In this document: in pieces, positions 35,956 to 39,840 of the stretch
Layout: every line of letters starts with the position of its first letter
How positions within the stretch are numbered: position 1 is the stretch's first letter
Assembly: GCA_029858255.1 (NCBI GenBank)
Contig: JAOUFJ010000003.1
Location: forward strand, 62,001 to 126,000
Origin: a candidate division WOR-3 bacterium
Lineage (GTDB): Bacteria > Hydrothermota > Tepidihabitantia > SM23-42
Length of the DNA: 64,000 bases
Direction of reading: 5' to 3'
The notes under the pieces: model-generated
The model's database searches: none
Seen by the model: the letters and a program-made list of their open reading frames with translations, nothing else
What the model was told of the DNA's origin: nothing
Translations under genes and position numbers: made by a program

Positions 35956-37398
35956 TCACTTAAACTTGATGAGCTTTTGGGTCTCTGCCTGTTCGTTCAA
36001 TTCAATACGCAGGAAATATACTCCTGGAGCAAGACGCAGAATTCTTGTATCTCCCAGAGTCACAGAAAGAGGAACGGATGTATAGGTCGCAGAATATGCT
36101 GATGCACCACAGATATCGTAGAGTGCGATACTCAGCGGCCCTTTCACTGACTCATCAAAACTTACGGTAATCCTTTCATTGAAAAAAGAAGGAGCAGAAA
36201 ACAAGCGGTGAGATGCAGCAACGGCTTCCCCATGCTCGATTACTCCCACATTACCGGTCGGATCGCACTTGTAATAGATCTCCCAATTTCCATCACGATC
36301 GTCATGCCAGACTACATGCACATGTGAACCGGAAACCGCCACCGAAGGCTCCCTCGACTCGGAAACATTGTCCGTAAGTCTTGTATCTACGCCCCAGTTT
36401 ACGCCATCATCGAAAGAACATTTGTAGTAGATCTCAGATGGATCTTCGTTCCGGTCATCCGGCCAGACAACATGCACATGAGAACCGGAAACCGCTACTG
36501 AAGGATACCACGAAGCAAAACTATCAGCGAGCATTACTTCCGTCTCCCAATTTGTGCCGTCATCCAGAGACCGCGTGTGAAAAATCTTGGGGCTATCGAC
36601 CCCGAAGCGAAAATCAGCGTAGACAACGTGCACAATGGAATCAGAGACCGCCACCGAAGGAAACTGCGAGGTGGCAGGAGTAATAGGCCTATCCGTCTCC
36701 CATGACGTACCATTATCAAGGGAACGTGTATAATAAATCTGCGGGGCGGCACGCATGTCCATCCAGACCACGTGCACGATCGAATCAGAGACTGCCACCG
36801 AAGCAAGGTTCTTTCCAGCGGGCGGGGCAGCAGGAGTGATTATTGTATCTGTCCCCCAGGTCGCGCCATTGTCCAGAGAACGTGCATAGTAGATCTGAGG
36901 TCCGGCACGCATGTCCGTCCAGACTACATGCACGATCGAATCACAAACAGCCACCGAAGGATGGTACCCCACGCCGGCAGTGGGAGTGAGGCCAATATCC
37001 GGACCCCAGGTTGCACCATTATCTAAGGAACGTTTGTAATAGATCCTTGGTGGTCCAATACGGCCGTCATACCATGCAACGTGTATTATTGAATCGCAAA
37101 CCGCCACTGATGGGCGTTCTGACCAAGCAGCATCTTCAGTAATGCGACTATCCGCCTCCCAGATCATGCCATTATCCGTGGAACGCTTGTAGTAAATCTC
37201 AGTATTGCCATCACGATCGTCATGCCAGACCACATGAACCATATCACCGGAACACGCAACACACCAGGCATTGTTAAAAGAAGTCACGGATTCGGAAGGG
37301 TCATTGGTCAACCGTACATCCGGCTCCCATTGAGCCAACAATACAAGAGGCATGAACACCCCAAAGACTATTGTCAGCAGATACTTTTTTCTGTCCAT
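35956..37398 (-). CDS. Secreted BNR/sialidase-like repeat protein with C-terminal sorting domain
   Basis: 480 residues: signal peptide (MDRKKYLLTIVFGVFMPLVLLAQ), seven repeats of 55-58 residues with SVAVxxSxVHVVWxDxRxGxxxIYYKRSxDNGxxWG (Asp-box type, a propeller), then a C-terminal domain ending LAPGVYFLRIELNEQAETQKLIKFK, like the sorting domains of two other surface proteins here. No glycosidase catalytic set is evident, so an enzymatic role is doubtful. Start at 37398 with AAAGGAGG upstream. A TATAAT at 37489-37484 may be its -10 box. Confidence 0.82.
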   Translation of the reverse strand: MDRKKYLLTIVFGVFMPLVLLAQWEPDVRLTNDPSESVTSFNNAWCVACSGDMVHVVWHDDRDGNTEIYYKRSTDNGMIWEADSRITEDAAWSERPSVAVCDSIIHVAWYDGRIGPPRIYYKRSLDNGATWGPDIGLTPTAGVGYHPSVAVCDSIVHVVWTDMRAGPQIYYARSLDNGATWGTDTIITPAAPPAGKNLASVAVSDSIVHVVWMDMRAAPQIYYTRSLDNGTSWETDRPITPATSQFPSVAVSDSIVHVVYADFRFGVDSPKIFHTRSLDDGTNWETEVMLADSFASWYPSVAVSGSHVHVVWPDDRNEDPSEIYYKCSFDDGVNWGVDTRLTDNVSESREPSVAVSGSHVHVVWHDDRDGNWEIYYKCDPTGNVGVIEHGEAVAASHRLFSAPSFFNERITVSFDESVKGPLSIALYDICGASAYSATYTSVPLSVTLGDTRILRLAPGVYFLRIELNEQAETQKLIKFK

Positions 37399-37573
37399 TT
37401 CAACCTCCTTTATCGACAAGGTATCCTCAATCTAAATCTACTCTCAACACCAACATCACAATGTTCAGAATACACAACAATGCATTATAGGTTGAATTGT
37501 GTGCATTTTCGAGTCCTGAGGTGGTCTCGAAAGCGTTTGTATTTAAACATTTGTTAAGGGCATGGCTTCATTG

Positions 37574-37601
37574 TTGACTTTATTTTGGTTTTTTGTACAA
37601 T
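37574..37601 (+). promoter_or_regulatory. Promoter of the HTH-TPR-SARP regulator
   Basis: TTGACT (37574-37579), 16-base spacer, TACAAT (37596-37601), 10 bases to ATG at 37612. The earlier in-frame ATG at 37600 overlaps the -10 box. The 175 bases left of it hold no other clear feature. Confidence 0.66.
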
Positions 37602-37611
37602 GTTTCCGCAT

Positions 37612-39840
37612 ATGGACAACAGACAGCGTCTGCGGCTCAAGGTTACGCATCACTACCTTCAGAACGAAGTTTCATTCAGACAGACCGCTCTGAAGTTTCA
37701 CATTGCTTATCGCACGGTCTTCAAGTGGGTTAGATTGTATAAGGAACAGGGTGAAGAAGCGCTTTTGTCAGCTTACAGAAGACCCTGGAACCGGGCAAAG
37801 CCGGATTTTGAAACAAAAGTCGCCCTGATGAAGGAACATGAACCGGGGTTGACCGTGCGTCAGGCAAAAGAGATCCTGGAAAAAGAAGGCGTCAGAATTT
37901 CCATCAAAGGGATATGGGGGATCTGGAAGAGGCATGGTTATGCAGGATTCAATCAAGAAAATATGAGCAGCAACTTCACCGATTGTCCTTGGACCGAGGA
38001 AGCAAAAAAGAAATATGAGTTAGCGCAACAACTCTTTGAACGCGGAGCAGTCGATAGGTCGGCTGAGATACTGAATTCTATTCCTGCACTACATGAAAAT
38101 GAACTTCTTCCACAGATCCCTGATTCACTGCTCAACATGAGAAGGCAGATCGAGAAAATGGGCCTTCTGTTCGGTAAAATTCCCGTCCGTTCCTATCTGG
38201 GACGATTGCGGGTTTTATATGAAGAGTGTCACAACCAGAATCTGCACTATTCAATCTTCATCGTGGGATCGCTGGAAATCAAGGCATTATCATGGAGCGG
38301 CGAACCGTTGGAGATGTTGAACAGAGTAGTGGAACTAAGAAAGATACTCAAAAGAACCGGAGATAAATATTCTTATTCACTCTTCGCCCCAAGGCTTTCG
38401 CTCCTGATCTCCGAGGGATTTGCACAGACCGGGCTTCTAAACATAAAAGCGGCATCGGACATAGCCAGAACCTGCCGTATCTTGCTTAGGAGACGAAAAC
38501 GTGTATCTCCGTTTTTCATGCGGGATCTTGGACAACTTTATGCACAATTGGAGGATTTCAGAGAAGCCAAATATTGGTATTTAAAATCAAGAGGTAGACT
38601 GAATGAGGAAGAAGAGAAGATCACCACATCATTCCTCGCTGATATATTCATTGTGAAGGGGGAGTATAAGAAAGCCCTCGAAATCTGGAAAAATGAAGAA
38701 TTAGACCATTGGGGGAGTCATTCCAAAATGCTTCGCATAAAATCCATGTGGTCGCTCGTCAAAGGAATGCCCCATAGAGCAATATCGCTCGCCACCGAGG
38801 TGCTTGCTTCGTTAGAGAAAGAGGAGGCAAAAGGTAGTATTTTTGGTTGTTATTTGACGATTGCAGGCGCATATTGTAGTCTGGGTGAAAACACCAGAGC
38901 CAGACGCATCCTCAAGGGCCTCCTTCCCTTTGTAGCAAAGAACCAACTGGAAATCTTGACAACTATTATCGAAATTCTTGCCTCTCAGGCACCGCATGAG
39001 AAAGATTCCATTGCAGTAGACAAACAATCCATGCCCACCATAAAACTCGCCCTCTTACTCAGGAACGGGCAATACGCAAAAGCCGTGAAACATGCGGAGG
39101 ACAAGGGTATTACAGGGTTCCTGCAGAGGTATATCTTTTTCTTTCCGGAGGTAATCACGGATCTGTTAGAGAAAGGAAAACCGACAAACCTTCCACGGAC
39201 GATGCTCAACTTGCCCGCCTTCCGAAAGGAAATACCGGTCTACTCTGTGAACTTTCTGGGAAGGCTCATTGTTATCAGAAACCAGCAATATCAGAGGATG
39301 AAATTGGCGCCAAAAGACGCCGCTTTCCTGATCCATTTAGCAACTGCAAAAAACCGATGGATCGCTCTTGATAGGATCTATGAAAATTTCTGGCCGGACA
39401 GCAAGAACCCTTCAAGAAATCTGGCGCATCTTTTGGTCAGATTAAGAAAAGCACTCTGTCTGCCTTCACATTTCTTGTACATCAAAGAGAATAGTCTCTC
39501 TTTTGACTGCCATTTCATCACTGATTACAATGAGTATCAGGAGCACCTTGCCCGGGCAAAGGCATTCTCAATTGCTGGTGAATGGGCGTTTGCTAGGACT
39601 GAGTACCTACATGCCTTCTCACTGTTTCGAGACGCACCATTCAAGAGAATGTATGATGACTGGTCAGAAAACATGCGCAACACGATCCTTGGTAACCTGG
39701 AAAATGAAACAATGAAATATGCCGAAGCCTGCTCTGCGTACGGTGAACGGGAAAAGGGCATTGAGACACTGCAGAAAATCTCCAAGGTCATCCCCTTTTC
39801 GGATGAAATCGAAAACCTTATAAATAGTCTAACTGCCTAA
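37612..39840 (+). CDS. Large regulator: transposase-type double HTH, TPR-like middle, SARP-like winged helix plus BTAD
   Basis: 742 residues. Residues 1-110 look like the paired HTH of IS481/IS630-type transposases (RQTALKFHIAYRTVFKWVRLYKEQGEEALLSAYRRPW, then TVRQAKEILEKEGVRISIKGIWGIWKRHGY) but no DDE catalytic core follows. The middle, about 120-510, is helical with TPR-like units (DLGQLYAQLEDFREAKYWYLKS, GCYLTIAGAYCSLGENTRARRILKGL). Residues 545-625 resemble the OmpR-type winged helix of SARP/AfsR regulators (DAAFLIHLATAKNRWIALDRIYENFWPDSKNPSRNLAHLLVRLRKAL), and 635-742 the bacterial transcriptional activator domain. Two DNA-binding ends are unusual. Cytosolic; targets unknown. Confidence 0.78.
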   Translation: MDNRQRLRLKVTHHYLQNEVSFRQTALKFHIAYRTVFKWVRLYKEQGEEALLSAYRRPWNRAKPDFETKVALMKEHEPGLTVRQAKEILEKEGVRISIKGIWGIWKRHGYAGFNQENMSSNFTDCPWTEEAKKKYELAQQLFERGAVDRSAEILNSIPALHENELLPQIPDSLLNMRRQIEKMGLLFGKIPVRSYLGRLRVLYEECHNQNLHYSIFIVGSLEIKALSWSGEPLEMLNRVVELRKILKRTGDKYSYSLFAPRLSLLISEGFAQTGLLNIKAASDIARTCRILLRRRKRVSPFFMRDLGQLYAQLEDFREAKYWYLKSRGRLNEEEEKITTSFLADIFIVKGEYKKALEIWKNEELDHWGSHSKMLRIKSMWSLVKGMPHRAISLATEVLASLEKEEAKGSIFGCYLTIAGAYCSLGENTRARRILKGLLPFVAKNQLEILTTIIEILASQAPHEKDSIAVDKQSMPTIKLALLLRNGQYAKAVKHAEDKGITGFLQRYIFFFPEVITDLLEKGKPTNLPRTMLNLPAFRKEIPVYSVNFLGRLIVIRNQQYQRMKLAPKDAAFLIHLATAKNRWIALDRIYENFWPDSKNPSRNLAHLLVRLRKALCLPSHFLYIKENSLSFDCHFITDYNEYQEHLARAKAFSIAGEWAFARTEYLHAFSLFRDAPFKRMYDDWSENMRNTILGNLENETMKYAEACSAYGEREKGIETLQKISKVIPFSDEIENLINSLTA

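Follow-up and report, generated by a model that had tools for sequence, protein, structure and literature searches.

The SARP family of regulators (AfsR, DnrI, EmbR) is built around a module in which an OmpR-type winged helix is followed directly by a BTAD; that module normally lies at the N-terminus of the protein, the sites recognized normally contain 11- or 22-bp direct repeats, and the neighboring genes are antibiotic genes. SARPs bind those repeats, the nearest of which is located 8 bp from the −10 element, and use sigma region 4 and the beta flap to bring in RNA polymerase (PMC10936776). A second architecture, found in MalT-type or LAL proteins that carry a SARP module at the C-terminus, joins a TPR middle to the winged helix and BTAD. 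The IS481 and IS630 transposases, for their part, open with a pair of helix-turn-helix motifs, as do the Paired/Tc1-type domains, and carry in addition a DDE catalytic core. The protein described here combines elements of all these systems: to judge from its sequence, it is a SARP/MalT-like regulator with an unusual head, a dedicated divergent neighbor, and an unusually regular promoter design. Its gene is found in a stretch of 64,000 nucleotides from a candidate division WOR-3 bacterium, which we refer to as the window, and the gene and its parts are the following.

37612–39840, + strand: regulator gene, 742 aa (open reading frame; full-length homologues of the same layout)
37633–37956, + strand: IS481/IS630-type bipartite helix-turn-helix head, residues 8–115 (NCBIfam, Pfam, and PAI/RED-like profile matches)
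38209–39216, + strand: TPR-like helical middle, residues ~200–535 (TPR families in the members; least conserved part)
39229–39507, + strand: OmpR/SARP-type winged helix, residues ~540–632 (CadC/AfsR profile matches; low-confidence model)
39517–39816, + strand: BTAD-like activation domain, residues ~636–735 (BTAD in the members; profile match to a MalT-type protein)

The frame is intact from its ATG through 742 codons, without a frameshift, and is present as a single copy in its own genome (2.72 Mb, 82 contigs). A search for full-length homologues, which an earlier note on this DNA had proposed, recovered sequences of the same layout that align from end to end and that, with the window copy included, make up a family alignment of 59 members spanning both ends; since full-length homologues thus possess both ends, we rejected the possibility that the gene is an assembly join or the product of a frameshift.

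The earlier note had read the beginning of the protein as the DNA-binding part of a transposase devoid of the DDE core, and the profile searches bore this out. Residues 8–115 corresponded to positions 2–112 of the 284 in the NCBIfam IS481 transposase model (E 5e-12), residues 17–110 matched the initial part of IS630 in the same collection (E 1e-8), and Pfam recognized HTH_28 (1.8e-7), HTH_23 (3e-6), and HTH_32 (1.3e-5) in the head; no DDE or rve catalytic core was matched by Pfam anywhere in the 742-aa protein, the IS481 model being covered at the cited positions only. A profile of 55 homologues retrieved, in addition, the Sleeping Beauty PAI (residues 3–48) and RED (residues 68–113) as well as the Paired domain, all of them weakly (E 0.01–0.09). 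These matches in the head are consistent with a bipartite helix-turn-helix pair, which the regulator would have in common with the IS481/IS630 transposases and the Paired/Tc1-type domains, while being without the catalytic core of the former.

The TPR-like nature of the middle, likewise anticipated, was confirmed at the level of the family, TPR_12 being found in 44 of the 59 members and TPR_MalT in 20; with a mean entropy of 2.44 this is the least conserved part of the protein, conservation being generally higher in the two DNA-binding ends. Regarding the C-terminus, the Pfam matches of the single sequence to Trans_reg_C (E 0.005) and to BTAD (E 0.04) both fell below the cut-off, and the predicted winged helix and BTAD were recovered by way of the family: BTAD was matched in 21 of the 59 members (best 2e-5) and Trans_reg_C in 8, and the family profile matched CadC at E 2e-4 and AfsR, over the winged helix plus the BTAD, at E 0.28. 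The same profile matched two proteins encoded in the same genome (L107 and L108; E 1e-12 and 2e-8), and the protein matched at 1e-12, which is of the MalT type, has a BTAD match of its own at E 9.5e-20. AlphaFold models from two-sequence alignments were of low confidence (pLDDT 46 and 51) and placed the helices and strands of the C-terminal part in the order expected; in a fold search with the low-confidence model, AfsR was the top match at a nonsignificant E of 0.5. Taken at the level of Pfam, NCBIfam, and family profile matches, these results support a protein with two putative DNA-binding ends and a regulator-like design, as had been supposed.

The two MalT-type proteins share with the regulator the TPR middle and the terminal winged helix plus BTAD, and carry an N-terminal MalT NTPase (NCBIfam MalT, E 7e-79 and 4e-65), whereas the regulator has the helix-turn-helix pair instead; neither Pfam nor NCBIfam matched a STAND-type NTPase in the latter. 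One of these two proteins adjoins a second MalT-like frame. Because both MalT-NTPase/TPR proteins end in the same module, a C-terminal SARP module is ordinary in this genome, and the architecture, which the earlier note considered unusual at both ends, is odd with respect to the transposase head and not with respect to the C-terminal winged helix and BTAD. The domain matches thus place the unusual feature in the head, which appears to stand where the MalT-type proteins have their NTPase. Relative to the SARPs, in which the module is N-terminal, the regulator bears it at residues ~540–735 of 742 and possesses the IS481-type head as an extra.

Relatives of the regulator occurred in 28 of the 147 genomes of the phylum, with up to 11 copies or matches per genome, and none was found in the plasmid and phage records searched. 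The sequences form a real family of predicted regulators, of which, as of the pairing between regulator and surface protein considered below, our searches of the open-access literature found no description. In many pairs of paralogues the 3′ ends were far more alike than the remainder of the gene: the DNA identity jumped upward at the 3′ end in 81 pairs, with one pair showing the opposite, and in the six pairs examined at fourfold degenerate sites the identity rose from 0.15–0.30 to 0.50–0.84 toward that end (residues ~640–742). These data indicate that the BTAD part has been homogenized by gene conversion, rather than by protein-level selection alone.

Certain members exhibit local peculiarities. 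The variants L069, L070, L071, and L088 are missing approximately residues 116–175, between the head and the TPR region, and two copies of a single-contig genome (G010:C1:356120-357814 and G010:C1:2484123-2486348) contain one in-frame TAG each, which may mark a pseudogene, an error, or a site of read-through. In L032, L059, L064, L065, and L087 an in-frame, stop-free insert of ~100 bp (shorter in L087) is located near query residue 562, within the winged helix; this insert has the inverted, co-varying ends CACCCCGTTAGAA...TTCTAACGGGG, is absent from the window copy, and was not found outside the regulator gene in the four genomes searched. In L037, L038, L040, L045, L047, L049, and L050 an in-frame palindromic insert of ~57 bp (ATCCGCC...GGCGGAT), mostly 91–97% identical between paralogues, occurs near query residue 712. 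Both inserts look similar to the Rickettsia palindromic elements but differ from those in not being dispersed; accordingly, we rejected their interpretation as a dispersed mobile repeat, both being confined to the regulator family in the genomes searched.

The gene that faces the regulator, together with the control region between the two, comprises the following features.

35956–37398, − strand: divergent partner, an exported BNR/beta-propeller protein with a T9SS type A sorting tail (TIGR04183, BNR_2, signal-peptide-like N-terminus)
37484–37502, − strand: partner promoter, ACACA (37502–37498), 8 bp, −10 TATAAT (37489–37484), without a −35 (motif finder, gap scan, −35 test)
37503–37573, no strand: spacer of 71 bp between the partner ACACA and the regulator −35
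37574–37601, + strand: regulator promoter, −35 TTGACT (37574–37579), 16 bp, −10 TACAAT (37596–37601) (sequence; conserved across homologues)
37603–37607, + strand: TTTCC just 3′ of the −10, conserved in the family

In the window partner, TIGR04183 was matched with 24.4 bits against a cut-off of 23, the sorting tail lying at ~35965–36171, and BNR_2 was matched as well; the N-terminus is signal-peptide-like, and the ATG at 37398 is accompanied by a Shine–Dalgarno sequence, AGGAGG, near 37400–37409. Since the genome also encodes the T9SS pore SprA (381.9 bits), the partner combines an export signal and a sorting domain with a T9SS in the same genome, and is thus a predicted T9SS cargo, in place of the antibiotic genes that adjoin the SARPs. 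The pairing recurs in the family: an upstream gene was visible in 57 homologues, and in 53 of these it was divergent and came from one connected group of secreted proteins. A signal-peptide-like start was present in 49 of 57 partners, and TIGR04183, the T9SS type A sorting domain, was detected in 41 of the 56 scanned, a count from which the tail of some partners may be missing because a contig end truncates 15 of 57. With only ~99 T9SS tail matches in the whole of the window's own genome, a chance neighbor would rarely be a T9SS cargo. The bodies of the partners vary, and include BNR and other beta-propellers, subtilases, C25 peptidases, and FG-GAP repeats. Regulators more than ~70% identical usually had the same partner, where comparable, and those at 55–70% identity often had different ones, from which circumstance we suggest that cargo has been swapped behind a retained regulator.

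The promoters of the two genes are of different types. In the window the regulator ATG is situated 10 nt downstream of the −10, so that the transcript would be leaderless or have a very short leader; in the homologues, a near-perfect TTGACA, 16 or 17 bp, TATAAT, and then TTTCC precede an ATG that is commonly 7–23 nt past the −10 and without a Shine–Dalgarno sequence. The predicted leaderless or very-short-leader transcripts of the regulators contrast in this regard with the partners, which have Shine–Dalgarno sequences. An EM motif search of the partner promoters returned aaaAT.ACACAnTTnnnnnTATAAT with an LLR of 223 versus 86–101 in shuffles, and an unbiased scan of the gap from ACACA to the −10 in the partner regions gave 36 instances (19 of them perfect) at 8 bp and no more than 13 at any other gap; not every member has an intact ACACA at that place, the element being degenerate, missing, or shifted in L051, L057, L063, L068, and others. 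The mean match to a −35 was 2.73 of 6 positions in the partners, where chance would give 2.56, and 5.5 of 6 in the regulators. The distance from the regulator −35 to ACACA was 66–72 bp in 38 of 45 instances, whereas shuffles averaged 2.1 such instances and never exceeded 5, and this geometry was present in 12 of the 16 clusters into which the regulators fell when grouped at 45% identity. The window's own genome contained two exact occurrences of the ACACA/−10 pattern, one of them at the partner, and a single exact match to the regulator-type promoter with TTTCC, at the regulator.

The partner promoter therefore resembles the SARP promoters in having a conserved element 8 bp upstream of the −10 and no −35, but differs from SARP sites in the direct repeats, the control regions having no autocorrelation peak at spacings of 11 or 22 bp; because such repeats were not found, any SARP-like action of the regulator would be no more than partial. 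A helical periodicity of conservation across the spacer was looked for and not found. We also considered and rejected a variable inverted repeat between the promoters, which visual inspection had suggested, the best dyads scoring 5.95 versus 5.60 ± 1.30 in shuffles; by that measure, the conserved inverted repeats near the genes for which the earlier note had proposed to look do not exceed chance. Nor was its idea of a protein bridging distant sites supported, in that the evidence indicates one compact region of ~70 bp between divergent promoters.

On an architecture, a pairing, two promoter types, and a near-constant spacing that are all read from the sequence, we infer a mechanism whose conjectural parts are the DNA binding by each head, the sign of the regulation, the autoregulation, and the sensing. 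Our full explanation, which we consider likely, is that the protein regulates, and most likely activates, the adjoining divergent T9SS-cargo gene as a dedicated local factor, and acts in a SARP-like manner. The C-terminal winged helix would bind ACACA 8 bp upstream of the partner −10, and the BTAD would recruit RNA polymerase, SARP-style, to a promoter devoid of a −35; given the SARP spacing, the lack of a partner −35, and the SARP-type output, C-terminal activation from ACACA is the best reading. The IS481-type head might provide a second contact, either within the spacer of ~70 bp or at the near-consensus promoter of the regulator itself, and the two contacts would result in a fixed spatial arrangement and probably in autoregulation; the near-constancy of the spacer suggests a single protein assembly that reaches across it. 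The TPR middle might sense a signal. The back-to-back pairing and the near-constant geometry of the control region suggest a private switch for each surface protein.

If, alternatively, the regulator were a repressor, ACACA and the spacer would constitute an operator and the −10 would be blocked until the TPR region sensed a signal. ACACA is indeed near enough to the −10 to block the polymerase, and the near-consensus promoter of the regulator would cause the protein to be made constantly; nevertheless, a partner promoter without a −35 is expected to be weak without an activator, the C-terminus bears an activator-type BTAD, and the 8-bp spacing is that of the SARP activators (PMC10936776), so that we regard repression as unlikely. 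More improbable still is that the regulator acts mainly on genes elsewhere and that the pairing reflects shared genomic islands or hitchhiking: although a number of copies lie together in islands with many secreted genes and many regulators 55–70% identical have different partners, this possibility would not predict a shared promoter pair with the 66–72-bp geometry in divergent clusters, nor an ACACA/−10 motif that in the own genome is essentially restricted to the partner. That the gene is not a regulator but the remnant or a component of a mobile element, such as a degenerate IS481 transposase, as its IS481/IS630-type head, the multicopy and patchy distribution, and the in-frame palindromic inserts of some relatives might lead one to think, is very improbable in view of the absent catalytic core, the long open frames conserved in 59 sequences, the intergenic inverted repeats no higher than chance, the lack of a match in plasmid and phage records, and the single copy in its own genome.

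Dedicated, probably activating control of the adjoining cargo gene is, then, the reading that we prefer, and it can be tentatively extended to the family as a whole: possibly, though we would not yet lean toward it, two-headed regulators of fixed geometry, each of them reserved for switching a single T9SS surface protein, have expanded to many copies per genome, their activator ends being gene-converted while heads, sensors, and cargo diverge, so as to form a modular system for alternative surface proteins in WOR-3. In a phylum for which hardly any regulatory biology exists, the locus connects a new regulator architecture, composed of a transposase head, a TPR middle, and a SARP output, with a specific target whose promoter design can be tested. 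If the proposal is correct, SARP-like activation would extend beyond antibiotic regulation to an arrangement of one regulator per surface protein, and a captured transposase DNA-binding domain would acquire a concrete role.
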